From Paracyclopina nana (taxonomy: Eukaryota > Arthropoda > Copepoda > Cyclopoida > Cyclopettidae), in the NCBI GenBank assembly GCA_019096065.1, contig JAGUCH010000001.1, forward strand, positions 5,332,001 to 5,396,000: a DNA stretch of 64,000 bases, written 5' to 3'. The notes below the pieces were generated by a model. That model searched no databases, was not told the origin of the DNA, and saw only the letters and a program-made list of their open reading frames with translations. Positions within the stretch are counted from its first letter, which is position 1. Each line of letters begins with the position of its first letter. The position numbers were made by a program, and so were the translations under genes. Of this stretch, positions 48,747 to 63,259 are shown in pieces.

Positions 48747-49603
48747 GGAAGGCTGATCATGATTGGGCTGAGGCCGACTTTTAAGCTATTCAACCTCTAA
48801 ATGCTTTGATCTGGGCCCAAAGTATTACGAATAAAGTTTACTGAACTAAGAATGCTCCTTTTTTCTAATGAAGTCAAAATTCAGTGCTTTTTATGTGGAA
48901 ACAAAAATTGGAACATGTCGCTACCAGATTGGCTTTTTTTATTTAACACATCAATAAATAGGCAATAAGAACACAATATTTGGCTGTATTTTGTTTGAGA
49001 CAACTTTCAACGCATTAGCGGGAACTCTGCATGGCAATTTTTTGGAAGCACGGGCGCGGGATTGCGCTTCTCGTCAAAGTGAAGTTCTATAGAGCGCGCT
49101 CCAACCTTGTTTACATCAGACATCAGAGTTTATACGACAACTCAGCAAATTACGCGAAATGGAAGTGTCAATTTTCGAAAGAGGTGATTCAAGAGATTGA
49201 CTCGATAAAATTCCTCGGAGCTGCATTATCAGCAAACAAGGCAATTTTGGACTTTTTCAAGGCTGCTGACGTCTAATCACTTAAGTGAGTGCTTGGAAAG
49301 AGCAAAAAAGAGCGTGCACTCTAGACTTTGTTGCATAATCGAGGAATGTTACGTTACTGCGTTAGCTAGCTGGCCGAGCGTAGAGAAAAAATCCTTGGAG
49401 TAAAACACTATATAGCCTAAGCCTTACACTGCACGAGTGAAAATTCGAGAATTTGTTAATATGAAGTCAAGAAACAGGGTGCGCTTTGACGAAATGATTA
49501 AAAAAGTCAAATGTTGATAGAGCTCGATGCAATTCTGATAAAGGGACAAATATTATTACATTTTTTTGTGATATCATTAATTTTGATGTAACTGTTACTA
49601 TTT
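48747..49603. other. intergenic DNA between the MITE and the LTR element
   Basis: No recognisable gene. A plus frame at 49031-49276 is open but matches nothing I know. Confidence 0.4.
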
Positions 49604-50162
49604 TGTCGTGGCCCGCAATCAACAAGAAGGTTGCCCTCAAAATGTCAGTGGGGATCGCAATGCGATGGACCTTAGCAATGCTAAGTGAACCTTCAAAAAC
49701 CAGGAAAAAGACAAGGCCCAGATGTGAATCCAATCAATCCTGGGTCAGGATCAAGCCAAATGGAAATCCACTGGAATCCTGGATGACAATGATGCTAGCA
49801 ACAAATGGAAGACTGAGCAATGCTCTAATCTAATCCAAGGACAAGTATGACTTGCCACTAAATCCAAACACAGAATTGACAATAAATAGATCTGAATCCT
49901 CAAAAGCAAGCTTCTAAGAGACTCAAAACATCAAACAAAGGCAGTACACTGAAATAAAAGAGAATAAAAGACACAGTCACGAAATAAATGAGATCAGACA
50001 AGTAAATTTGGCAGAGAAACAAATTGAAGTTCTATTTTCGGTGGAATTCTTGGAGCAACTGACAAATTCTTATAATGGCGGTGAAATCAGCAGACTTGGC
50101 GTCCTTTTTTGAGGGTGCGCGCGCGTGCGCAATGCGCAGCGTTGCCAGGGCAGAACACAACA
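49604..50162 (-). repeat. 3' LTR of the BEL/Pao element
   Basis: 559 bp, low-coordinate copy. It carries four of the short palindromes, at 49654-49666, 49671-49685, 49815-49825 and 50126-50138. Confidence 0.95.
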
Positions 50163-50177
50163 GCTGTCCCCCCTTGG
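50163..50177 (-). promoter_or_regulatory. polypurine tract of the BEL/Pao element
   Basis: On the coding strand the sequence CCAAGGGGGGACAGC abuts the 3' LTR. This is the expected place for the plus-strand primer. Confidence 0.75.
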
Positions 50178-50202
50178 AGGCCGTAGAGGCCAAGACCAGT
50201 GC

Positions 50203-51894
50203 CTAAGGCCACGAGGTCGTAAAGGCCACGCATCGGTCCTCCAACACATATCGGGTGGAGGCTCCTTCTTGGATGACCTTATTGTAGGGGACAAGGGCGA
50301 GGCGGTCTTCCTGGCGGGCGAGGTGAAGGCCAAGTCCCTCGTGCAGGCGGAAAAGCTCCAGGTGGAGCACGCTGCACAAGGCTGTTTCCTCCAGGATCTG
50401 CAGAAAGGGCTTGGCTGAGATGGAGGGCTTGTGGTGGGAGGAGTGATGCCCCAGCTCCTGACAGTATGAGCAACGCTCAGTGAGGCTGTCGCACACGAAA
50501 ACTGTGTGACGATGTGGGGTGCCGCATTGCGTGTTGATGCAAAACACCGGTCCAGCATCGCACTCATCTTTCAAGTGGTCGAAAGATCCGCACCGACGAC
50601 AAAAGTGCGGCGCAATGCGCCCACCTTTGAATATGACGTCAAGGACGTCGCTCCACATCAGCTTGCCTGGGGCCTTCCTAACAATGGACATGAAGGCCAA
50701 GGCCAGATCCCTGGAAACGAGGTGCAGATCAATAGCATATGGCCTGCCCTTGCGGAAGTAATTCCTGGTGGCGCTGACACTGTTGATGGCTTGCGAGTCA
50801 TTGTCCAAAAGCCACATCCACTCAGCAAACACACCATCCTCGCCATGCGAGGTGGTGGTGCTTGGCTCCACCTTGTTGAATGGCCTCAGGTTCTCGTCGG
50901 TCTTCTTAAGTTGGCCAGAAGCCCTGAGGTTGCGGATCCTGTCCAAGGCCAGATGAATGTGACGCAATGCGTCACATTTTGGCCCAAGACCGTGTCGTCT
51001 GAGGCCTCTCTGCACGAGAGTGAGGATGGACCCAAACGTGAGGGCGTGGTTCATCCACACAAACATTTGTTGCTTGGCGGTCCAGGATTTTGTGGGGAGG
51101 CTGAGGTCGTCATCTTCGCGGTGATATTCGAACCTCACCTGGTTGCCCTTGAGGACCACGTGCTTGTTCCCAATGCGCTTGGCGCTCTTCTGGACTGGCA
51201 CGCCCTCGGTTCCAAGCCGCTCTGCCATATAAGTCACATTGGACTTCATTTCTGCTGCTTTCACGCCCGCTTGTGGAAACAGCAGCAGAGTCACCGTATT
51301 GACGTCACAACGTGCTCTGATGTCGATGCCAAGATTCGCATATCTTCTTTCTTGATCGATGTTGAAGCCTGCCACCCGCATGGCGGGGGCTTCAAGCAGC
51401 GCGATGATCTCCTTGGGAATTTTTGCACCCTTGAAGACTCCATTTCCTCCTTCACCACCGTAATTGCTTTGAATGATGAGCAGGGTGCTGAGGCTGCCAA
51501 CGGCAAGGACGGTGAAACATCCTTCGGTCGGCTTGCCATTGGACGCCATCTTGGCCTTCTCCAGTGCCTTGACGGTCCAACTGTAGAGGTGGCTGGAGAC
51601 GAGGTTCAAGTACTTGGCCTCGCGGAAATATCCCAGTCGCTCCAGCTTGACCTTGACGGCGATCCATTGCTCATCTTTTTCCAGCACGACTACGTTCCTC
51701 GATGCATTGTTGAGGCGGCAATCCAGAGGCCCTTCTCGCATCTTGATGTGCTCCTCAAGCTGCTCCAGGAAGTATGCCGAGTAGCACAACTCTCCATCCT
51801 TGCCTCGAACAATGGCGTCAAGTGGGCCCTCCTCAAACCTTCTGAGGACGCACTCAAGAAGGCTGCATGAGTCTTCCTCGCGGTCATCGAGCAA
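50203..51894 (-). CDS. extra ORF of the BEL/Pao element, 3' half (zinc-knuckle protein)
   Basis: About 563 codons end 40 nt before the 3' LTR. The last third has CRRCGSFDHLKDEC, an exact CX2CX4HX4C zinc knuckle, followed by a Cys/His-rich stretch with CSYCQELGHHSSHH (CX2CX4HX4H). Such knuckles bind nucleic acid in retroelement gag and LINE ORF1 proteins. I saw no signal peptide or membrane segment, so it does not look like an envelope gene. The frame has no natural ATG near its start. It overlaps the preceding ORF in another frame and is probably expressed as the C-terminal part of the same protein (see the homopolymer finding). I know no established BEL/Pao gene of this kind. Confidence 0.75.
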   Translation of the reverse strand: MLDDREEDSCSLLECVLRRFEEGPLDAIVRGKDGELCYSAYFLEQLEEHIKMREGPLDCRLNNASRNVVVLEKDEQWIAVKVKLERLGYFREAKYLNLVSSHLYSWTVKALEKAKMASNGKPTEGCFTVLAVGSLSTLLIIQSNYGGEGGNGVFKGAKIPKEIIALLEAPAMRVAGFNIDQERRYANLGIDIRARCDVNTVTLLLFPQAGVKAAEMKSNVTYMAERLGTEGVPVQKSAKRIGNKHVVLKGNQVRFEYHREDDDLSLPTKSWTAKQQMFVWMNHALTFGSILTLVQRGLRRHGLGPKCDALRHIHLALDRIRNLRASGQLKKTDENLRPFNKVEPSTTTSHGEDGVFAEWMWLLDNDSQAINSVSATRNYFRKGRPYAIDLHLVSRDLALAFMSIVRKAPGKLMWSDVLDVIFKGGRIAPHFCRRCGSFDHLKDECDAGPVFCINTQCGTPHRHTVFVCDSLTERCSYCQELGHHSSHHKPSISAKPFLQILEETALCSVLHLELFRLHEGLGLHLARQEDRLALVPYNKVIQEGASTRYVLEDRCVAFTTSWP

Positions 51895-53642
51895 GGCTCG
51901 AACCCGAGGGCAGGGGGGGGGGGGTCGTAGGTGGTGTTTGATGGAGGTGGTGGGCGGACTGCGGGCGAGATGAGTCCGGTGCTCCGCAATGCGGAGGCCA
52001 TGGTTGGGTTGGTGGCGTCAAAGGGGTCGGCGAGGCTGGCGATGTCGGGCTTCTTGTTGAAGTGCCACCAATAGCGTTGAAGCCACTCCGGTACCTGATG
52101 TGGCTCTGCGGCTGGGCCCATCGCCAGAACTTGCTGCAGGCACTGATCTTCGGTGGGAGGGGCTTCGCCAAAGGTGCCAAGCACCACGACTTTGGCAAAT
52201 CTCTTGCGGACAGCCCACGCCCTCTTCGCGGCCCCCAAGTCGTGGCCTTCCAGGCAGCCTCGCTTCAACGGCACGACACGAGGGTTGGAAAAGAGGCACC
52301 TCAACTCATAGGAGTCGTAGACATCGAGGGCCTCGGGGTGGCAGACGCCCATGACGTAGAGGGGTGCTCTACCATCAGAAAGAGCAGCGATGCGGGTGTG
52401 GTCTTGACGAGACGCCTTGGCAGCTGCTGCGGCTCGGGTGGGCTCGTCACGTGGGTCGTCCTCGGGGGAGTGGGGCCCATAGGAGAGGGTGTGGCCCAGA
52501 AATGCCACCTTCGGATCGCAATACTTCCGAAGCAGCAGGTCGCCTTCCATATCCATGGCCTCGTCCTCAAAGATGACCTCCTCGACTTGGAGTGCCTCGC
52601 GCAGGACTCGGATGTGGGGGGCGAGCATGGCTCTCCTCTCCACATGCTTGCGTGGCAAGTTGAGTCCTGAAAATAATGACAATAAATTATTAGCGTCTTC
52701 ATCAGAGGCATGTGGGTGGGACATAAAATTGCTACTCCCAAAAACCTGTCCGATGGAGATCTCTTCTGGAATAGGGGAGAGTTTGGTGGTTGGCGGTGAC
52801 GATCTAGCTCTGCCAAGCCGAGAATGTATTGAACTTCTGGAGCTAGAACTGAAGCGTGATCGAGACGAGGACAAGGAGCTAGAACTTCGCGAGCCTGGCC
52901 TCTTTATTTTCAGCGACCGTCGAGAATGATTTTCAACACTTGAGCTCCGTGAGGAGGACGAGCTCCGCGAAGTCGAGGACGAAGAGGACGTGCTTCTCGA
53001 GGTGGAGGCAGACGACGCATGACGATCCCGCCCACGTTCATTGTCGCCAGAATTTTCGGGAGCTGTGATTCGGGTTCGGGTTTTTGGTGTTGGGGGTGGT
53101 GGCATGGCCACGGGTGAAGTAGCGACCTTAGGTGGGCTACTGGAAGTGTCCATGTCCATTCTTTTCACGGCCTCGAGGTCAAGCATCAGAACATCCCCAG
53201 ACCTGAGCGCGCGCCCAGATCGTGGAGACTCAGCTAAAAGTTGCTCATGCTCATCCGCATGTATGATGATGGCCTCGTCTCCGTCCATTGATCCGAGAAG
53301 GCTGACTCCAGACTCACTTGGTGGTCCTCCCATTTGGCCGGGGGGTGATCGAAACGAGGACGCCACTGAGGCTCGGTCATCCTCGATCTCCATGGCTTCA
53401 GTTGGGGACGTGACGTGGGAGTTGGCATGAGTAGCAATGCTAGACTCATTATTACCTGTAGCAGCATGGCTGCTGGTGGCGATGTCCATGAGGGCGTCGT
53501 AGTCCGACAAGTCGATGTTGGGCCGGGGTTGTTCGGCCTTGGGGGCATCGCTGGGTGGTGTCACGGGTTGCAGTGGAGGCTCAACCATTGTTGAAGCCTC
53601 CGACACGGTCTCGTCGAGAATATTTTGAACGATTTCACTCAT
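51690..53642 (-). CDS. extra ORF of the BEL/Pao element, 5' half (RS-rich protein)
   Basis: The frame opens with ATG at 53642, about 330 nt after the pol stop. Residues 1-200 are acidic and Pro/Ser-rich. About 205-300 form a dense Arg/Ser region with runs such as STSRSTSSSSSTSRSSSSSR, similar in composition to RS domains of splicing factors. About 300-573 are a more ordered region of unknown fold. At 51913-51924 a run of 12 identical bases is crossed. The frame downstream of it looks non-native, while the frame of the next ORF looks protein-like, so meaningful coding probably ends near residue 573. The function is unknown. RNA binding or nuclear transport is an inference from composition only. 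Confidence 0.72.
   Translation of the reverse strand: MSEIVQNILDETVSEASTMVEPPLQPVTPPSDAPKAEQPRPNIDLSDYDALMDIATSSHAATGNNESSIATHANSHVTSPTEAMEIEDDRASVASSFRSPPGQMGGPPSESGVSLLGSMDGDEAIIIHADEHEQLLAESPRSGRALRSGDVLMLDLEAVKRMDMDTSSSPPKVATSPVAMPPPPTPKTRTRITAPENSGDNERGRDRHASSASTSRSTSSSSSTSRSSSSSRSSSVENHSRRSLKIKRPGSRSSSSLSSSRSRFSSSSRSSIHSRLGRARSSPPTTKLSPIPEEISIGQVFGSSNFMSHPHASDEDANNLLSLFSGLNLPRKHVERRAMLAPHIRVLREALQVEEVIFEDEAMDMEGDLLLRKYCDPKVAFLGHTLSYGPHSPEDDPRDEPTRAAAAAKASRQDHTRIAALSDGRAPLYVMGVCHPEALDVYDSYELRCLFSNPRVVPLKRGCLEGHDLGAAKRAWAVRKRFAKVVVLGTFGEAPPTEDQCLQQVLAMGPAAEPHQVPEWLQRYWWHFNKKPDIASLADPFDATNPTMASALRSTGLISPAVRPPPPSNTTYDPPPPALGFEPCSMTARKTHAAFLSASSEGLRRAHLTPLFEARMESCATRHTSWSSLRSTSRCEKGLWIAASTMHRGT
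51913..51924 (-). other. 12-base homopolymer at the frame switch between the two halves of the extra ORF
   Basis: Twelve G on the plus strand (C on the coding strand) sit where the upstream frame stops looking protein-like and the downstream frame begins. One added base, or a minus-1 slip by the ribosome or polymerase, would join the two frames. Confidence 0.8.
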
Positions 53643-53971
53643 TTTTTTTAAGGCACACTTTTTGTTTTGAAACGTTGCGCTCCGGAATTTTACATCGGAA
53701 ATGGAAGCTGAGACAGCAGCTCGAAACTAGTTGAGCGAAGAGTGGCCGCAGTGGCAGCAGCGCATGGCGCGTTGGGCTGCTTCGGCAGAGAAGACGTGAA
53801 GAAATGCGTGCGCAACAAAATTGCTAAAAAGCGCAACCTCATTACTTGAATTTTTTCCGCGATACGTGGGATCGCATGGCGAGGGTATAATGCTATTTTG
53901 ACTAGAAAATTGAGTTTTGGGCGCATGGCGCTAATTTTCGCGTTGCGAATAGTTGATGTGGTTATAGTTAC
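53643..53971 (-). other. spacer between pol and the extra ORF of the BEL/Pao element
   Basis: About 330 nt without coding, holding three of the short palindromes with an ATG loop (53760-53770, 53872-53882, 53921-53931). An internal promoter, splice acceptor or reinitiation signal for the extra ORF would have to lie here or upstream. None was recognised. Confidence 0.5.
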
Positions 53972-56900
53972 TCACAATTTTCCCTTCCTTACTGTGCGAT
54001 TGGAGGTGATTGGCAACGGGCAATCCTCTTCGCCTTTTCTTGAGAACATTGTAAGGTTTTGATAATACCTTCCAAGTTCTGGGCTTGAATCAGCCAGGTC
54101 ATGTTGCAGGCGCAGTTGCTCGAGGTTTGGTTGCTCGTCATCCTCTCCCGCTTTGTTGTAGACCATAAACTCGTCAGAATCTTTGAACACATTCAGTGGT
54201 ATGAGGTAACGAGTGGATTTTTCGTAGTATACAGGCTCATCTTCTCCGGTGGGGACCATTTTGACAATTGCCCTTCTACACTCTCCATCCTGGTCACGAA
54301 TGGCCTTATGAATGATGCCGAGTGGCCAGCAGTACCTGCGATGGAAGTGAGGCCTCTCCAGCACTGCCACCACGTCGCCATGCGACAAAGTCCTCCGATG
54401 ATGTTGCCAAATTGGCATTTTTCGTATGTGCTCCACGAGCTCGAGAGACCAAAAATCCCAGAGCGCCTGCAATGCAGATTCAATAAGGTGATACCTTTTC
54501 TCAAGGGAACTAAGAGCCTCTGGATCGATCACGGGTACAACATCACCAGGAGGCCCTCGGGTCAGAAAATGATTGGGAGTGAGAAAATGACCCTCGAGTT
54601 CTCCAATTGGTCTTCCGTTGATAAAGCCTTCGGATTTGATGACGCAGTATCTGAAGTCCTCCAGATTGGTGACAGTGGTCCCCCCAAACTGGCGATACAA
54701 GGCTTTCTTAAATATCTTGACAGCGGCCTCCGATAAACCATTGAAGTTCGGGGAGAAAGGCGGTGAAAGCGTCCAATTGACAACGCCAATTTTGCCGGCA
54801 AACTGTCGCAACTCATCCCAGTTGACCACTTGTAGTTTTTCGAGCATCTCCTTGTACTGTGGGTTGACTCGAATGTCTTCTCGAACACCAATGAAATTGC
54901 TTCCATTGTCGCTCCTCAGGGTGTGTGGACAGCCTCTTCTTGCGACAAACATCTCCAGAGCCCTCATCAAGGAGGCAGAGGTCATATCATAGACCTCTTC
55001 GCAATGAATTGCTTTCGAGTGCATGCAAATAAAAATGATCACATACATCTTGTACTCGCTGCGATTGAAGTTGGTGATGAAGGGGCCGCACATGTCGAAA
55101 GATGTGTAGCGAAATGGCAAGAATTCAGTCAGAGGGACTGCGTGGGGTGGCAATGCCACGAGTTTGTGCCTGGCACACATCGCGCAGTTATTTAATATCT
55201 CAGTCATAATGCGCTTACCACCGGGAATGCAAAACTTAAGCTGAGCCTCGCTCAAATACCTAAGTCTGCCGAGGCCATGCCCCAATTTTCGATGAAAATC
55301 CTCGAGAACCAACCTGCAACCCTCGCCTGGAATTATGAGCTGACGGCGGCCGATCCACTGAACTGGAGTGGAATCCAGGCGTCCTTTGGTGCGTAGCTCG
55401 CCTTGCGAGTATAGCACTGGATCAATCTTTGCCAATCGACTTCCCCTGGGCCACATGTTGTGGACAAAGAAATAATCAAGCTCACGAGCATACTCTTTTT
55501 GTTGCAGCCAAATAGCAATGCTATTTTCTGCGAAGGCATATTCTTCGGGGGTGATGTCGCCCTGGTTGACCGCATCAGAGCAATATCGGATGATCAGGGC
55601 CCATCTTCGTGCATGGCACAAGGCTCGCACAGCTCGCTCCCATGAATTGAGTTTGGACAGATCAACATGGCAAGTGGTGTACCTCATATAATGCCATTTT
55701 GCTCGAGTTTCGGCGGAGGCTCGTAGATGTTCAGGGACTTGATAGCCTCCCATTCTTGTGAATTGAGCCACGAGAAGTTCTTTAAGCTTGACTTTCCTGG
55801 CCTTTCTTCCCCCTTCTCCAGTTCGCTCGTATCTTTCCAAGGCAGCTCGTTCGTCATCGGTGACATTGGGAACCCATTTGGGGAACTTGTTTTCCGGTCC
55901 CCTCAGAAACCTGGGTCCATGGATCCAGAGGTCTGAATCTGCCAACTCAGCAATGCTGAGTCCACGCGAAACTAAATCCGCAGGATTCATCTTCCCTGGA
56001 ACATGATGCCATCGGTGGTTGATTGTTTTCTCCACGATAGCAGTGACACGGCGTCCAACCCACTTTTTCCATAGAGTGGATGGTTTACTGATCCATGTGA
56101 GAGTGCACTGTGAATCAGTCCACAAATGCACCTCATCCAGTCGACCTAGTACATTGACCAGATCCTCACAGAGTTCAGCTCCAATAACGCAACCTTCTAA
56201 TTCCATTTCGGGCATCGATCGGGTGGAAGAAATGGAAGCTACCTTCATTCGAGAGGCAAGCAGAGTGCAATCATACACTCCATCTTCGTACAAGACGCGA
56301 ACATATGCACAGGCTCCTTTTGCGACCTCGCTCGCATCGGAGAAAATGTGCAGTGAGATGTGTGCAGCCGGTCGAGAGCGCATGGCGCGAGGAATGCGAA
56401 CAAGCTCGACTTGATCGACTTCCTTGACATATTGATGCCAGTCTTGTAGAATGTGGTCGATTTCTCTTGAGTCCAGCATCTCAAGGGCTGTGTCCCAATC
56501 GATGCCATATAAGGTGCGAAGAACATTGACGCGTTGAATGAGAAGTCTGCCTCTGATGATGAGAGGTGCCATTAATCCTAGAGGGTCGAACAGCCTTGGC
56601 ACGAACTGGCACATAAGACGAAGTGTCACTGGCGCATTGCGCATGAAATCGGTGTTTGGTGGCTGATACACGATTTGATCGCCTTCGCAATCGATGTACA
56701 TGCCGAGTGCTTTCGTTGTATCAGCATTTTCAGAGGAGACCGCGAATCCAGGCAATCTCAAGTCTTCATCGACGTCTTCGAGAACTGGAGCAGCATTGCT
56801 GCCCCATTTTCGAAATGGCATATTTCCCAACTCCCCAAGTTCCATAATTTGCCTGACAGTTTCTTTTCCTTCGGCAATGTTCTCCACCGAGGCAAAAACG

Positions 56901-59900
56901 TCGTCAACATAGAGTGCTGTGTCAAGGACCTTGAATCCAAGGGGATGTGATTCCTGATATTTTGAGATGTGGTGCTTCACCGCAAAACTTGCCATGCAAG
57001 GTGCACTGGTCGTGCCGAAGACTACAGAGTTAGCTTCGTAATGCACGCCATTCCAGACGAAGCGGTGAAATTTTCGCGAAGCGGGGTCGAGTTTAAATCG
57101 CAAAAACATCTTACTAATATCGGTGACGATGATGATGGGCTTTTCACGTGCTCCAACCAGAATGTCGAACACATCTTTTTGGAGCTTGGGTCCAGGCAGG
57201 AGAGCATCATTAAGACTTTTTCCGTTGTGCTTCCTTGATCCATCGAAGACCACCCGAACTGGCATCGAAGGCTTGTCGCGTCGCTCGACCAGCAGCCAGT
57301 CCAAGTAGTAGCCGTCATTGATGTCATCGATCTCGGGGTCCAATTCGCGAATGAAGCCCAATTCAAGCCAATCCTTGAGCTCTTGAGTCGCCTTCTCATA
57401 TGTGGGCAGATCAAATAACCGAAGTCTTCGCTCCACGGCGGCAGTGGATCGAAGCACCGCAAGGCGGTTGCAAGTGAAGTTGGGCTCGTACTCCGCCCAC
57501 ATTGGACTCATCTGATAGTCCTTGTTGTCAAGTTGGCTAATGGTTTGAGTAAGGATGTCAAGAGCCCGCTTGTCATTGATGCTGAGCATGGCTCTGGGTG
57601 AGAGTTTGTTGGTGGGGAAATCAGCCTCCCAAAGTGCTTTCAGTAACTCAGAAGGAGGAGGAATATCTCGTCCGAAACAGTTGCCGCATTGCGGTGGCTG
57701 CGATGGTGGCTCATCCGGTTGTTCTTGATCCGATCGAGGCAATCCTACGGTTCCCATCATAACCCCATAGTGAGAAGCCATCTTGACTTGTTCAGGGGTG
57801 TAATACGTCACGACGCGACCGAGAGGACAATCATAGACATAAGGTTCACCTTCTTTCTTGTGGACAATCTTGTCAGGCAAAATGAGGTTGTAATAATCGA
57901 TACCAATGAGCAGGTCTGGGCAGGGTGGTGACGCATAGGTTGGGAGATTCAGATGCTTCAAATACTCAAATTTCTTTTTCAGTCGTTCAAGCGGAGGCAC
58001 TGATACAGAAGATGGCAGATCATGAATAGTGTGGAGCAAGAGATCCTGATGTGGTCCCCCCGTCAGGGGTTTGACGCGTAGAGTCACAGCATCGCTGATG
58101 ACGTTGACGGTGGTGGCGATCATTTTCAGGACTTGATCATCGGAAACTCCGTCCAGGTCCAACTTTTTCGAAAGTGAAGCTGAGATCATGGAGAGCTGAG
58201 CACCAGTATCCAGGAAAGCATTCACTTTGATGTAGGTGTCAGGCCGCTTAGGATTGGCGACCAAAATGGGCACCACACAGAAACTGAGTAGATCTCTTCG
58301 TCCTTCATGTTTGGGTGATGCGCCATGCGCTTGCACCACTGATCGACCATCGGATGTGACTCTCATGGTGGAGGGAGGCTCGACTGCTAGTGATGTCCCA
58401 GGAACTGGCGAGCAGCCTCTGGTGGACAGCCTGGCCTCGAGGATGGCAGGGTCACTAGCCAGCAGACTCAGATCGTGTTGACGAGTAAGTGGTCCCGCTA
58501 CTTCTTCGCGGAAAGTTTCACTGTCAGCAATGCTGCCAGGAGGGGAATCAGTGTTGGCCACATCATCTTCATCGTCATCAGAAAGGAACTGGCTCTGATC
58601 ATCATTAGGTCGATTCAAGGGCAGAGAAGTGAAATGCATGAAGTTGGCTCCATCGTTCTTGGGAGCCCCGAGTTCTTCCTTCAGGGGATCGATTGCTTGG
58701 TCTCCAGCATTGCTGGACCGAGCGGCAAGACCGAACTGCTGAATGACCTGAGTCAGTGAAGAGACGGCCTTTTCTAGACTTGAAGTGGCATTGCCACCGG
58801 AGTCCCCCCGTGGAGGTGGCGAGGGCGTGGAAGGTTCATTGGCATCAGGTTTGTCCTTGTGATCCCAGGCTCCATGCAATCGGGTGTGGTGACTTTCAGA
58901 CTGACACTTATCGCATTTCCAGTTTCGAATACACTCCTTGGTGGTGTGCATTCCAGCCATGCAACGCAGGCAGGCCTTGAACTTGAAGCACTTCACAGCT
59001 TGGCCACGCGGAGTCATAGCCAAAATACTCGGACAATTGTAAAATCGATGCTCCGTGGAGCCGCATTCGGGACATTTCGTGAAATACTTTTGATCGGTCT
59101 TGGTCACGGTAAGAACAATAAATGACTCACCTCCGCCTTGCGGAATCAATACCTCCTCATCGTTGTCATCTTCGTTTGGTGGAGGATCATTGGTGTCGTC
59201 TGCATGGCAGGATACCTGGAAATGGTGCACTGGCTCTGTCTGCAGATGTTGTGGATGCGGTGAATAAGTCTCGAACTGATTCACAGCAGCTTTGGCTCGA
59301 GGTCTGGCAGACTGGACGGCCGGGTTGGCAATGGAGTGAGACCTGAGGATGCTGAGTCTCCGATTGCACCACTGGTCAAACAATTCACTCGTCATATAGG
59401 TAAGTGCGCCATCTCCTCTGGAACTCAGATAGCGGTCGATGTCATCTCGCGTGGCGAGTGTCATCGGCAGGGTCCTGAATATGTAGGAGTCATGCAAATC
59501 CATGGGCACATTCAGACTTGGGTGGCCCCAATGACTTCTGACATGGCGGTAGATGTTGGCGACCAACAGCTTGGCTGCCATGACACTAGTGGAACTCAGA
59601 TAGTCCAGTGGAGTCATGTTGGTCATCTTCTGAATCAAGCAATCCATTTGTAGCTTTGGACAGCCATAATCATTTTGGAGGACCTCCAGACACAGAAGGT
59701 AGCTTTCTTCTGTTTGAGGTTGACTGGCTACGAAGTCTCCAGCCGGTCCTCCACGGGTCAGATCCATAAGTCGATTGAACTTTTCTGGCCAAGAGCTTGC
59801 CGGGTTTTCATGCACCAGGGCCCTAAATTGGTCTCGAAAAGTCACGAAAGTTGAAATGTCTTCACCTGTGAATCGTGCGAGGTTGACAGCAGGCAGTTTC

Positions 59901-62638
59901 GCTCCAAATCGGGCTGCCAGGCTTGGGTGATTGACCACAAGGTTCTGGTAAAGGTGGGGTGCCATGTAGGTGCCAAAACCGGGTGTCGAGGGCAGATTGA
60001 TGGGCGGTGCCGTAGGTGGGGCAACACCAGCATGGCTGGTTTGCTGCTGCTGAACAAGACGTGGCATATCGTCTCCAGGTACTTGATTCCTGGCGTGCTG
60101 AGTTGATCCAGTATAGTGGTCCGGTGCAGCTTGGGGCGGCATGGCCGGGAACTGAGGCATGGCCTGGAAACCTGGTTGATATGATTGATAATGGGGTACC
60201 TGTGGCCGGGCTTGAGCTTGGACGGGTTGCATTGCCGGCCTCCAAGGTTCACTTGTTGCTCGAGGCAGCGCGGTTCCCACGGGTTGTGACAATCCAGGAT
60301 GATGAATATGTCTTTCCCCAGCTGATGATCCGGACTGACCCCAGGCGTTCTGAGGTTGGCCTGGTTGACCATGCACCCCATCGTTCGGGTTGATCCCCGA
60401 GAAGATCGGTGCGCCATGCGCGTTGGTGACGTGGGTGTTGCCCCCCGAGCCCGTGCGTCCATCAGAGGTTCTCATCCATGGCAGGTTGGACTGGTGGTTT
60501 TGGCGTACCAAATTGGGCTCAGACACGGTTGAAGGGGGTTGCGCATGGCGCTGGTAGACATTATTGACTACCTCACCTCGGATCGGTGGTGGCCTTACTT
60601 GAGGTGGCGGCTCGTTAAGGTTGGGCAGCCGGAATTGCTGCTGAGCAGGAGGTGGGCGTGACTGAGTCATGAGTGGCACCGTAGTGGTTGAAGGCAGGGG
60701 CTGGTAGCCCGGGGGTGGCCTCAAGGTTCCGTCCTCGTAGCTTCTTCTCACCCCGATTTCAACATCCTCCAAGGCTCTCGTGGCCCTGACATAAATGTCC
60801 TCGTTTCGTGTTGGAGTGACACCTCCAGCCGAGCAGTACCGATCCTTGGCGCGTGAGTATTCATCCAAAGCTACCGCAAGGCGGTGTTTCAGATTGCTCC
60901 ACTCGACTCCAGTCGGGCCTTCAGCAATGTCTTCAACAGCATCTTGAAGCACTTGTCTCAGATACATCGCGGTGGCACCATATTCCATTCCAAGCTCCAG
61001 TAGTTCAGAGCTATCAGCGGCAGCGGCGGTTGTGGTGACAGGTGGATTTGCCGTAGCTGAAGTTCCGATGGGCTGACCGTGCGCCGTAGAGCCGACAACA
61101 TGAGAAGTCGCGGGCGCGGTGGTGGGCATAGCAGCTGAAACGGCCGAATCAAGCGGGATCAAAGTACCAGCCCTCACCTGCAGCTGACGATTAAGCCAAT
61201 CAGCTGTTGCTTGCTGGGAGACTTCTTCAGCTGTCAAATCATAGATTTCACCAGTTGGCATGGCCACCCGGCAGCCTCCAGTGGCCTCATTGACCTCGAC
61301 ACGAGCTAGTTCGCCCAGGGCGCTTGCATCAGAGTCAGACTGCAGACTCGTATTTGGTTGAGGTCGAAAAGCCGGAGGAGGATTCAATCCAGAGGCTGCT
61401 CCGCCATGCGGTTGACCTTGCGGCCTTTGACCAGATGCGAGCACACGCAATATCTCGTCAGCAGCGTAGAGCAGTGCTTGGCACTGACTGTAGCACTTCC
61501 CAAATTCAGACTTCAAATCCTTGGAAGGCTGGAGTCGTGCTTCAGCGACGGCGGCATCGTAGAGTCCTTGCAACCTGTCAAATTCTTTGAGATAATACTT
61601 TAAGTGTTGCTTCACCTCGTTTGCCTGAGCCTTGGACACTTGTTCAGTCTCCCCAAGAAAGGCTGTTCGGTGACGCTTGATGAATGGCTTGGTGAGGTCA
61701 AAAAGCTGCTGCAAAGACTCAGTGTGCCGGATAGCGTCCAGCTCCGCCGTTTTCATGGCCTCGATCCTCTTCGGGGTCCTCTTGGCAGAGTCAGGTCTCG
61801 ATCGAGTTCCAGTGGGAACATATTCCCCACCAGAAGCGTGGGTTTTCTTTTTGCCGGAAGCCCTCTTCTTGGCTCCAGCACTGAGGCTGTGGGTGCGTGA
61901 TCGAATGCCAACAGAGGATTGGGATCGGGCGTCATCTTCCTGGGAAGACGGCATGGCCGTGTCGCCAGGGTTAGGTCTCAAGGTTGAGTCACCACCGGTA
62001 GCCTCCGTTTGTTGGTCGGGAGGTTGATTGGTGACAGCATGCATGCCCATGTGAGCAGGGGTCGAATGTGGGGGATGACCAGAGAGACCTGCCGCTCCAC
62101 CGCTTGGCGGCGGGTAGGGTGGTACTAGAGGACCAACCTGCCCTGGTGGGGTCCGATACAAGGACTTCCCAGGGGGGAGCATGGCTCCAGAGCCTGACCT
62201 CCGTGAGTTGTCAGGCATGGGAGTTCCAGGGATCAGTGACTGATCCGGATTGGGAGCGTTGGAATCTCCGGGGATAGTTGTTGGCGGCCTCTGCATACTG
62301 GTAGAGATGCTGAGGTCAAAGGACAGTCTTCTCCTAGACTCGTGAACGTCGCAGGTGGTTCCTGTGTGAGATTTTCTGGGAGTTTCTCGGTTACCGTGAG
62401 CCGGAGTTTCGTGGATCTCGGTGACCTTCTCAGGATTTTCAGGACTGACTATTTGATGCTGGTCAGGCAGCAATGCTGCGTGCTTGGATTGTTGCAAAAG
62501 AAGGTTCTGCCGACGCAGGGCTTCGTGATACGGGGATAGTTCAAGGTTGATAGCCTCCTGACTTTGATAAGGCTTTTTACCCTGATTCCGCTTACTTTTT
62601 CTGGTGGGGTGTTGCGGAGATTTTCCCTTTTTCGGCAT
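53972..62638 (-). CDS. gag-pol polyprotein of the BEL/Pao element
   Basis: A single 2888-codon frame starts with ATG at 62638, 43 nt after the primer-binding site. Residues 1-1150 are a long, Pro/Gln/Ser-rich gag. About 1188-1255 form a Cys/His cluster (CPECGSTEHRFYNC, CDKCQSESHH). The aspartic protease has FLDTGAQLSMIS near 1474. Reverse transcriptase has the catalytic YVDD near 1909. RNase H has LWTDSQCTLTW. A zinc-binding integrase N-terminus (CAMCARHKL) and the DDE core (DMCGPFI, RSDNGSNF) follow at about 2450-2620. A BEL/Pao-type C-terminal domain with PNHFLTRG follows at about 2695. There is no internal stop or frameshift, so the polyprotein looks intact. Products would copy the element RNA into cDNA in cytoplasmic particles and insert it in the genome. 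Confidence 0.95.
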   Translation of the reverse strand: MPKKGKSPQHPTRKSKRNQGKKPYQSQEAINLELSPYHEALRRQNLLLQQSKHAALLPDQHQIVSPENPEKVTEIHETPAHGNRETPRKSHTGTTCDVHESRRRLSFDLSISTSMQRPPTTIPGDSNAPNPDQSLIPGTPMPDNSRRSGSGAMLPPGKSLYRTPPGQVGPLVPPYPPPSGGAAGLSGHPPHSTPAHMGMHAVTNQPPDQQTEATGGDSTLRPNPGDTAMPSSQEDDARSQSSVGIRSRTHSLSAGAKKRASGKKKTHASGGEYVPTGTRSRPDSAKRTPKRIEAMKTAELDAIRHTESLQQLFDLTKPFIKRHRTAFLGETEQVSKAQANEVKQHLKYYLKEFDRLQGLYDAAVAEARLQPSKDLKSEFGKCYSQCQALLYAADEILRVLASGQRPQGQPHGGAASGLNPPPAFRPQPNTSLQSDSDASALGELARVEVNEATGGCRVAMPTGEIYDLTAEEVSQQATADWLNRQLQVRAGTLIPLDSAVSAAMPTTAPATSHVVGSTAHGQPIGTSATANPPVTTTAAAADSSELLELGMEYGATAMYLRQVLQDAVEDIAEGPTGVEWSNLKHRLAVALDEYSRAKDRYCSAGGVTPTRNEDIYVRATRALEDVEIGVRRSYEDGTLRPPPGYQPLPSTTTVPLMTQSRPPPAQQQFRLPNLNEPPPQVRPPPIRGEVVNNVYQRHAQPPSTVSEPNLVRQNHQSNLPWMRTSDGRTGSGGNTHVTNAHGAPIFSGINPNDGVHGQPGQPQNAWGQSGSSAGERHIHHPGLSQPVGTALPRATSEPWRPAMQPVQAQARPQVPHYQSYQPGFQAMPQFPAMPPQAAPDHYTGSTQHARNQVPGDDMPRLVQQQQTSHAGVAPPTAPPINLPSTPGFGTYMAPHLYQNLVVNHPSLAARFGAKLPAVNLARFTGEDISTFVTFRDQFRALVHENPASSWPEKFNRLMDLTRGGPAGDFVASQPQTEESYLLCLEVLQNDYGCPKLQMDCLIQKMTNMTPLDYLSSTSVMAAKLLVANIYRHVRSHWGHPSLNVPMDLHDSYIFRTLPMTLATRDDIDRYLSSRGDGALTYMTSELFDQWCNRRLSILRSHSIANPAVQSARPRAKAAVNQFETYSPHPQHLQTEPVHHFQVSCHADDTNDPPPNEDDNDEEVLIPQGGGESFIVLTVTKTDQKYFTKCPECGSTEHRFYNCPSILAMTPRGQAVKCFKFKACLRCMAGMHTTKECIRNWKCDKCQSESHHTRLHGAWDHKDKPDANEPSTPSPPPRGDSGGNATSSLEKAVSSLTQVIQQFGLAARSSNAGDQAIDPLKEELGAPKNDGANFMHFTSLPLNRPNDDQSQFLSDDDEDDVANTDSPPGSIADSETFREEVAGPLTRQHDLSLLASDPAILEARLSTRGCSPVPGTSLAVEPPSTMRVTSDGRSVVQAHGASPKHEGRRDLLSFCVVPILVANPKRPDTYIKVNAFLDTGAQLSMISASLSKKLDLDGVSDDQVLKMIATTVNVISDAVTLRVKPLTGGPHQDLLLHTIHDLPSSVSVPPLERLKKKFEYLKHLNLPTYASPPCPDLLIGIDYYNLILPDKIVHKKEGEPYVYDCPLGRVVTYYTPEQVKMASHYGVMMGTVGLPRSDQEQPDEPPSQPPQCGNCFGRDIPPPSELLKALWEADFPTNKLSPRAMLSINDKRALDILTQTISQLDNKDYQMSPMWAEYEPNFTCNRLAVLRSTAAVERRLRLFDLPTYEKATQELKDWLELGFIRELDPEIDDINDGYYLDWLLVERRDKPSMPVRVVFDGSRKHNGKSLNDALLPGPKLQKDVFDILVGAREKPIIIVTDISKMFLRFKLDPASRKFHRFVWNGVHYEANSVVFGTTSAPCMASFAVKHHISKYQESHPLGFKVLDTALYVDDVFASVENIAEGKETVRQIMELGELGNMPFRKWGSNAAPVLEDVDEDLRLPGFAVSSENADTTKALGMYIDCEGDQIVYQPPNTDFMRNAPVTLRLMCQFVPRLFDPLGLMAPLIIRGRLLIQRVNVLRTLYGIDWDTALEMLDSREIDHILQDWHQYVKEVDQVELVRIPRAMRSRPAAHISLHIFSDASEVAKGACAYVRVLYEDGVYDCTLLASRMKVASISSTRSMPEMELEGCVIGAELCEDLVNVLGRLDEVHLWTDSQCTLTWISKPSTLWKKWVGRRVTAIVEKTINHRWHHVPGKMNPADLVSRGLSIAELADSDLWIHGPRFLRGPENKFPKWVPNVTDDERAALERYERTGEGGRKARKVKLKELLVAQFTRMGGYQVPEHLRASAETRAKWHYMRYTTCHVDLSKLNSWERAVRALCHARRWALIIRYCSDAVNQGDITPEEYAFAENSIAIWLQQKEYARELDYFFVHNMWPRGSRLAKIDPVLYSQGELRTKGRLDSTPVQWIGRRQLIIPGEGCRLVLEDFHRKLGHGLGRLRYLSEAQLKFCIPGGKRIMTEILNNCAMCARHKLVALPPHAVPLTEFLPFRYTSFDMCGPFITNFNRSEYKMYVIIFICMHSKAIHCEEVYDMTSASLMRALEMFVARRGCPHTLRSDNGSNFIGVREDIRVNPQYKEMLEKLQVVNWDELRQFAGKIGVVNWTLSPPFSPNFNGLSEAAVKIFKKALYRQFGGTTVTNLEDFRYCVIKSEGFINGRPIGELEGHFLTPNHFLTRGPPGDVVPVIDPEALSSLEKRYHLIESALQALWDFWSLELVEHIRKMPIWQHHRRTLSHGDVVAVLERPHFHRRYCWPLGIIHKAIRDQDGECRRAIVKMVPTGEDEPVYYEKSTRYLIPLNVFKDSDEFMVYNKAGEDDEQPNLEQLRLQHDLADSSPELGRYYQNLTMFSRKGEEDCPLPITSNRTVRKGKL

Positions 62639-62680
62639 GAGATGTGGATGGGTGTCGGGTATCTAGGGTGGGGTGAACGG

Positions 62681-62697
62681 CCCCACGTTGGGCGCCA
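62681..62697 (-). promoter_or_regulatory. primer-binding site of the BEL/Pao element
   Basis: On the coding strand, TGGCGCCCAACGTGGGG starts 3 nt after the 5' LTR. It begins with TGG, as expected for complementarity to a tRNA CCA end. I did not assign the tRNA. Confidence 0.8.
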
Positions 62698-62700
62698 AGT

Positions 62701-63259
62701 TGTCGTGGCCCGCAATCAACAAGAAGGTTGCCCTCAAAATGTCAGTGGGGATCGCAATGCGATGGACCTTAGCAATGCTAAGTGAACCTTCAAAAACCAG
62801 GAAAAAGACAAGGCCCAGATGTGAATCCAATCAATCCTGGGTCAGGATCAAGCCAAATGGAAATCCACTGGAATCCTGGATGACAATGATGCTAGCAACA
62901 AATGGAAGACTGAGCAATGCTCTAATCTAATCCAAGGACAAGTATGACTTGCCACTAAATCCAAACACAGAATTGACAATAAATAGATCTGAATCCTCAA
63001 AAGCAAGCTTCTAAGAGACTCAAAACATCAAACAAAGGCAGTACACTGAAATAAAAGAGAATAAAAGACACAGTCACGAAATAAATGAGATCAGACAAGT
63101 AAATTTGGCAGAGAAACAAATTGAAGTTCTATTTTCGGTGGAATTCTTGGAGCAACTGACAAATTCTTATAATGGCGGTGAAATCAGCAGACTTGGCGTC
63201 CTTTTTTGAGGGTGCGCGCGCGTGCGCAATGCGCAGCGTTGCCAGGGCAGAACACAACA
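62701..63259 (-). repeat. 5' LTR of the BEL/Pao element
   Basis: 559 bp, high-coordinate copy, matching the copy at 49604-50162. It carries the element's own promoter, reading away from the neighbouring phosphodiesterase gene. Confidence 0.95.

Follow-up and report, generated by a model that had tools for sequence, protein, structure and literature searches.

In retroviruses, the packaging signal psi is located mainly near the 5' end of the genome. Constitutive decay elements of the Roquin type consist of a short stem with a C-G closure and a triloop. Dispersed packaging signals are hard to spot in most genomes because they are faint, and to our knowledge the way in which retrotransposons with long terminal repeats (LTRs) choose their own RNA among that of relatives is largely open. 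In single-stranded RNA viruses (MS2 and others), many short stem-loops with a shared motif occur through the genome, according to part of a published account (PMC6281560). In this work, a window of 64,000 nucleotides (nt) from the copepod Paracyclopina nana (contig JAGUCH010000001.1, positions 5,332,001 to 5,396,000) was analysed, which holds a BEL/Pao LTR retrotransposon with an array of short, GC-closed triloop hairpins. We hold with middling confidence that this array is a selected set of dispersed and redundant cis-acting hairpins, most likely in the genomic RNA, which are bound by a protein of the element for self-recognition and packaging.

As far as that part of the account goes, the array resembles the dispersed packaging signals of single-stranded RNA viruses in its many short hairpins with a shared recognition motif, present above chance and conserved beyond coding, and a packaging role is predicted for it. 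On the other hand, the carrier is an LTR retrotransposon and not an icosahedral virus, the hairpin is a fixed GC-closed triloop that occurs once per ~210 nt, and its core varies between families. As with psi, the hairpins are presumed to be recognised by the zinc-knuckle protein of the element, but they lie in the LTRs, pol, the gap behind it and the downstream frame, and none lies in the 61-nt leader. Unlike the Roquin-type elements, there are dozens of them per RNA, the loop varies by family, and the host flank shows no excess. The element shares with BEL/Pao the domains DUF1759, DUF1758, reverse transcriptase, Peptidase_A17, integrase and DUF5641, in this order between the LTRs. It departs from BEL/Pao in its size of 13.7 kb (13,097 bp when one LTR is excluded), in a downstream frame of more than 1,000 amino acids (aa) in most relatives measured, and in the hairpin array. 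No such array was described in the retrotransposon and BEL/Pao literature among the matches listed, at the level of titles and abstract openings and with few subscription journals.

Excess and plan of the hairpins

A hairpin was defined as a perfect palindrome GC-nnn-GC with a stem of at least 4 bp. The element holds 66 of them, or 62 when the second, identical LTR is excluded. The initial annotation had put the number at about 53; that count was too low, and the excess it claimed is real and stronger than it said. The polyprotein frame has 40 hairpins against a mean of 3.35 (standard deviation 1.77, maximum 10) in 1000 shuffles of synonymous codons, which preserve the protein and the codon usage; the array thus stands far above the codon-preserving shuffles that had been proposed as a check. 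The two parts of the downstream frame, open reading frames (ORFs) 2 and 3, hold 8 and 6 hairpins, with synonymous-shuffle means of 1.57 (maximum 6) and 0.85 (maximum 5) in 500 shuffles each. Under dinucleotide shuffling, the count of ORF3 was attained at least once in 300. With the same number of dinucleotide shuffles, the 4 hairpins of the LTR compare with a mean of 0.13 (maximum 2), and the 4 in the gap between pol and ORF2 with a mean of 0.20 (maximum 2); the 61-nt leader has zero. Chance or base composition as the source of the array is ruled out by both kinds of shuffle. Codon or amino-acid bias is ruled out as well, because the polyprotein hairpins fall in all three codon phases (17, 14 and 9) and the first and second codon positions in stems are conserved about as elsewhere.

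Outside the element, the window contains 12 hairpins, all within the left 49.6 kb, and the mean of 50 dinucleotide shuffles is 12.1. It had been stated that the flanks contain a single comparable site, which the scan does not bear out; the contrast between the element and the flanking host DNA itself holds, as the flank has no excess. Signs of a general property of the host DNA were seen neither in the 49.6-kb flank nor in four other retroelement pieces (L047-L050), which have no excess. These pieces came from reverse-transcriptase matches, lie outside the 150 listed Peptidase_A17 places and are otherwise unclassified.

By comparing closures and loop lengths, 62 extended sites were counted for GC closure with a loop of 3, against 7.1 expected. 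Counts for GC closure with loops of 0-2 and 4-12 match expectation, and loop 3 with other closing combinations shows no comparable excess. On the plus strand, the core lies within a stem of at least 4 bp in 18 of 18 cases for GCATGGC, 14 of 14 for GCAATGC, 6 of 8 for GCCATGC and 5 of 7 for GCATTGC. Read in sense, the loops are CAT (18), ATT (14), ATG (6), AAT (5), CAA (4), CTT (3) and some rarer ones, so that the triloop of this element is mostly [A/C][A/T]T. The arm sequences vary between sites, and each of the four kinds of pair occurs at pair positions 4, 5 and 6; what is repeated is a structure and not a unit, as had been noticed initially. Insertion of a mobile hairpin is ruled out, because the arms differ and the sites align ungapped in relative A in 48 of 50 cases (44 of the 50 window sites examined are kept, 4 lost and 2 gapped).

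The hairpins are spread over the whole element, with 681 nt as the widest gap between centres, and they are spaced more evenly than random (coefficient of variation 0.73 vs 0.97; 0.48% of 5000 simulations were equally even). Such spacing would agree with an in-register dimerisation, in which sister genomic RNAs pair site by site, the hairpin being the closed form and the intermolecular duplex the open form. Arms that differ between sites would let each site pair best with itself on the sister RNA, and the loop ends are complementary in most families, which would leave one central mismatch in the dimer. However, the commonest sense loop, CAT, leaves a 3x3 mismatch, and a fixed GC closure would be unnecessary. 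Moreover, even palindromes, ideal for this purpose, are at chance in the window element and its relatives B, C and H (4, 8, 11 and 11 observed vs 8.1, 8.4, 8.2 and 8.8). We therefore consider dimerisation quite improbable. A depletion of even palindromes, suspected from the scan of the element, was not borne out by these counts.

Conservation and two-sided changes in relatives

Relatives of the element within the genome have identities of 95%, 71% and ~66% (2-kb query), and 20 relative stretches carry 2.1-5.6 hairpins per kb aligned to the element. The 15-kb stretches of relatives A, B, C and H contain 61, 70, 59 and 48 hairpins, flanks and both LTRs included. Thirteen copies (A to M) were compared, nine in the retention count and eight in the codon-position count; neither count included D, E, F and G, which are near-copies of C, and the latter also lacked M. 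Between the window element and the nine relatives, taken in both directions, the hairpin was retained in 226 of 352 ungapped comparisons (53 more were gapped), where a hairpin shared by the two sequences of a pair counts twice, once from each, and the relatives are not independent. The clean control palindromes were kept in 15-20% of cases: 72/377 with loop 4, 56/336 with loop 6, 62/406 with loop 8 and 86/433 for triloops of other closure. Palindromes with loops of 5 and 7 partly contain the hairpins (183/620 and 97/445 kept), and therefore only the even loops and the triloops of other closure are clean controls.

In the polyprotein frame, identity at the third codon position is higher in stems than in the rest in all eight relatives (stems/rest 0.99/0.78, 0.77/0.46, 0.68/0.45, 0.59/0.44, 0.72/0.43, 0.59/0.38, 0.56/0.45 and 0.54/0.44). 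The first and second positions in stems are near the rest, with 0.90 vs 0.84 and 0.77 vs 0.88 as the largest differences, and thus the conservation of the stems is not that of amino acids. The hairpins are kept by selection beyond coding constraint.

At the same time, sites turn over. Forty-nine of the 62 window sites align ungapped to at least one relative, and of the 34 with such an alignment to some relative besides A, 28 are kept in one or more of these. The proportion of ungapped window sites kept is 11/23 in C and in G, 8/19 in H, 7/14 in I, 4/13 in J, 6/15 in K, 5/15 in L and 1/5 in M. The relatives also carry their own hairpins in other places: within the parts that align, C, H, I, J, K, L and M have 23, 18, 11, 8, 9, 12 and 6, and the window element has 27, 25, 18, 16, 18, 20 and 5, with slightly different block settings among the counts. 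The turnover fits redundant, replaceable sites, which in some relatives are sparser in the coding part.

Compensatory changes in aligned copies, named by the initial annotation as a test, were found as well. Five sites of the window show two-sided changes inside a kept hairpin (Table 1); at the strongest, 55510-55526, pairs were exchanged in three different ways. Where both members of a pair have changed, Watson-Crick pairing is preserved in 35 of 56 cases for the hairpins and in 195 of 486 for the clean controls. In a second group of families, described below (L032, L034, L035, L037 and L046), the corresponding numbers are 28/42 and 37/114. The Fisher values of 0.0016 and 0.0002 are indicative only, because of the double-sided counting and the non-independence of the relatives.

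These changes bear on a mutational origin, which had been offered as one possible meaning of the array. In that case, the reverse transcriptase would snap back at GC..GC and copy its own arm, and the palindromes would be made and maintained without function. GC is self-complementary and could prime such a step, and template switching would also yield concerted two-sided changes. However, the rate of change is lower in the stems than at synonymous sites nearby, which unbiased copying of an arm does not give, and two-sided changes together with this conservation argue against it. Moreover, the cores are themselves overrepresented with certain loops and jointly with the arms, families with related reverse transcriptases carry other cores or none, and under GC closure no loop length but 3 is enriched. 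Snap-back is thus disfavoured, and we regard it as highly improbable.

Family cores, strand and the putative reader

The genome contains a rich set of coexisting BEL/Pao families, with at least 150 scored Peptidase_A17 matches (150 of 243 candidates were scored in the genome, which comprises 92 Mb on 10 contigs). Eighteen further loci of 4.5 kb each were hand-picked from these matches and compared with 100 synonymous shuffles per locus. Relatives share the array, and some sister families have other cores; the initial annotation had noticed neither, nor the position of the element on the minus strand and the strand bias of its sense loops. In L032, L034, L035, L037, L039, L040 and L043, the triloop count was attained by 0-1 of 100 shuffles. 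L042 has 15 palindromes with a one-base loop vs 4.5 expected, and the excess is marginal in L041 and L046. The core is CCWGG in L039 and L040, GCGNCGC in L042, and CAG/CTG triloops with longer stems in L032, L034, L035 and L037. In the latter four and L046, 47 of 81 ungapped comparisons retain a palindrome with a C-n-G loop and a stem of at least 5 bp, vs 10 of 76 for other triloops. Controls with loops of 2, 4 and 6 are kept in 3/47, 7/67 and 7/59, and loops of 5 and 7, which are not clean controls, in 45/158 and 23/82. Core-to-core conversion at the same position between families was seen in isolated cases only.

Three side observations concern these families. In L043 (G000:C2:12859700-12864200), palindromes are raised at loops 1-4 alike (21 vs 10.7 for loops 2 and 4), unlike in the window family. 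AAA triloops occur at 3 sites in L030, all CG-closed, and at 4 in L031; they are perhaps a sparse code of their own. L028 (G000:C4:4140322-4150321), a 65% relative, has six aligned hairpins with the plus-strand loops CTG (3), ATG (2) and GAG (1); the sense loops are CAG, CAT and CTC, and it may therefore be intermediate between the code of the window family and CCWGG.

The reading as cis-acting hairpins is grounded in the excess, the single loop length and closure, the constraint on synonymous sites, the partial turnover, the two-sided changes and the differing family cores. Arms that are variable yet complementary speak for pairing, and a fixed closure and loop for recognition. Redundancy with turnover points to many interchangeable sites, and since the core changes with the element family, the reader is most likely the element's own. 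Beyond this, we infer action in RNA, a binder encoded by the element and packaging as the purpose. The hairpin would consist of a stem at least 4-5 bp long whose outer sequence is free, the fixed GC closure and a family-specific triloop. Gag would bind many copies through its zinc knuckles, the downstream zinc-knuckle protein being the less likely binder, and the element could in this way recognise, condense and package its own RNA among many other BEL/Pao families. We tentatively hypothesize, with less confidence than for the function itself, that the co-resident families each label their whole RNA with a family-specific hairpin code, read by their own protein, which would avoid cross-packaging, and that new families arise by a joint change of code and reader. 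The codes would be [A/C][A/T]T closed by GC, CCWGG, GCGNCGC and CAG/CTG.

For the choice between RNA and DNA, the strand of the loops is informative. In the window element, 32 loops are sense-favoured (CAT, ATT) and 11 reversed, with 25 vs 11 in coding (p 0.03) and 7 vs 0 in non-coding parts (p 0.016). The direction is the same in A (29/15), B (28/19), C (26/17) and H (22/17), and among the LTR hairpins, ATT occurs 4, 3, 3 and 2 times in B, C, F and H, and AAT zero times. Among the C-closed palindromes with a one-base loop in L039 and L040, there are 18 CAG and 4 CTG. Stems of the window element fold better in sense than in antisense (0.64 vs 0.51, p 0.004), likewise in A, C and H (p 0.06-0.09).

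Several results weigh against selected RNA hairpins with a reader of the element's own. Eight of the 18 loci have no clear excess (L029, L030, L031, L033, L036, L038, L044 and L045; in L031, 5 of 100 shuffles attained the triloop count). In L037, L040, L041 and L043, the counts at loops 2 and 4 are raised too. L039 and L040 have a core in common but seldom a site, with 2 of 17 kept among those that align ungapped. Relative B has no sense preference in folding (0.58 vs 0.60), and the sense context outperforms shuffled flanks in A (p 0.02) and C (p 0.04) but not in the window element, B or H. Behind pol, a stretch of 455-474 nt in A, B, C and H holds 8 favoured loops vs 6 reversed ones, so that the strict bias seen in the non-coding hairpins of the window does not extend to the family at large. 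Single changes to G-U and to A-C number 61 and 50, with control ratios of 0.83-1.3 to 1. Most families have complementary loop ends (A-n-T, C-n-G, G-n-C), a feature that is not required of a hairpin loop. Moreover, among the 84 listed matches of the downstream frame in the genome (79 of 194 candidates were scored), none is near L032, L034, L035, L037 or L046, and the downstream zinc-knuckle frame adjoins the hairpin-poor L033 and L038.

Some of these results would suit an action of the palindromes in complementary DNA or integrated DNA, as single-stranded DNA hairpins, as cruciforms or as symmetric sites that a dimeric integrase or nucleocapsid would recognise. In that case, no clear preference of G-U over A-C and mixed non-coding loops in relatives would be expected, and most cores are indeed symmetric to the central base (GCANTGC, CCWGG, GCGNCGC, CNG). 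The loops of L042 also lack a strand bias (GAC 3, GTC 3, GCC 2, GGC 2). However, variable complementary arms need pairing and not sequence half-sites, and a duplex site cannot prefer a strand, yet the loops are biased both in the window element and in L039/L040. The strand evidence overall moderately favours RNA over DNA, and we judge the DNA-level function rather unlikely.

The hairpins could also be bound by RNA-binding proteins of the host, involved in decay, transport or control of translation, and be used by the element or tolerated. Selection on RNA hairpins fits this equally, and the size and the C-G closed triloop plan are like those of the host-recognised Roquin-type class. Against it, the cores differ between families of one genome and 8 of 18 loci have no clear excess, and neither the host flank, which is at chance, nor L047-L050 shows enrichment. 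If one host factor were the reader, all families would be expected to have the same core, so the differing cores speak for a reader encoded by the element; a host factor seems unlikely to us. Binding of RNA hairpins by an element protein, one of the meanings listed initially, is thus the best reading left, with the binder itself putative.

By comparing the two candidate binders within this reading, Gag appears to be the better one. The downstream protein is unlikely to be a general binder, because it is found beside hairpin-poor families and none of its listed matches is near the C-n-G group. Its second part has a zf-CCHC match with an E-value (E) of 0.0061, weaker than the family cut-off, and no homologue of the downstream frame was found at E 0.001 in a large protein database. 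In the window copy, 50203-53642 is covered by two overlapping reading frames; C and F likewise have two frames in this part, whereas A, B, G and H have a single open downstream frame of more than 1,000 aa.

Structure of the element and meaning of the array

The coordinates of the element, its parts and the hairpins with two-sided changes are given in Table 1.

Table 1. Features of the BEL/Pao retrotransposon and selected hairpins (positions in the window).
Feature	Position	Strand	Details
BEL/Pao LTR retrotransposon bearing the hairpin array	49604..63259	-	Peptidase_A17 E 1.9e-32; stems 4-10
5' LTR (sense)	62700..63259	-	identical to the other LTR; 4 hairpins, every sense loop ATT
3' LTR (sense)	49603..50162	-	hairpins 49654-49666, 49671-49685, 49815-49825, 50126-50138, as in 5' LTR
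Gag-Pol polyprotein frame, 2888 aa	53972..62638	-	40 hairpins
Non-coding gap, pol to downstream frame	53643..53971	-	329 nt; 4 hairpins, sense loops CAT, CAT, CAT, AAC
Downstream frame, first part (ORF2), 650 aa	51690..53642	-	8 hairpins; no Pfam match
Downstream frame, second part (ORF3)	50203..51894	-	6 hairpins; zinc-knuckle-like array; candidate hairpin binder
Longest hairpin, 10-bp stem, sense loop ATT	50956..50978	-	same sequence in relative A
Hairpin AAATAGCATTGCTATTT (sense)	55510..55526	-	kept with two-sided pair changes (A-T to G-C, A-T to C-G, T-A to C-G) in C, H, I, J, K, L; broken in B
Hairpin ACTCAGCATTGCTGAGT (sense)	55945..55961	-	two-sided pair changes in C, L
Hairpin GCAGCAATGCTGC (sense)	56790..56802	-	C-G pair to G-C in H, J, K
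Hairpin GAGCCATGCTC (sense)	57584..57594	-	H, K, L: outer G-C to T-A, loop CAT to AAT
Hairpin TCCGCAAGGCGGA (sense)	59132..59144	-	outer T-A to A-T in B

The polyprotein contains a zinc-knuckle array, which was called from the translation and not from a family match, followed in our domain list by protease, reverse transcriptase, Peptidase_A17, integrase and DUF5641. The order of PF05380 (E 1.9e-32), PF00078, PF17921, PF00665 and PF18701 between the LTRs fits BEL/Pao, where the matches of PF00665, PF17921 and PF03564 are under their curated cut-offs. In the reverse-transcriptase region, the top-scoring protein is 32% identical (Cordylochernes scorpioides). The two LTRs have 100% identity over 560 bp, and ATTT flanks the element on either side, which reads as a 4-bp target-site duplication; the insertion is thus recent. 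The 18 bases GCCCCACGTTGGGCGCCA at 62680-62697, adjoining the 5' LTR, are in sense a likely primer-binding site. The neighbouring host frame is that of neurofibromin, with a named insect protein as best match, 76% identical, and other proteins up to 92% over part of it. A scan of the window with Rfam at the gathering score gave no known RNA family, no relative of the element was confirmed among viral contigs, and one 2-kb piece of it had no match in a phage collection.

The signal of the array is strong, dense, conserved over the synonymous background and family-specific within one genome. It would mean that a self-recognition code of BEL/Pao elements is directly testable, for example by binding assays across families.

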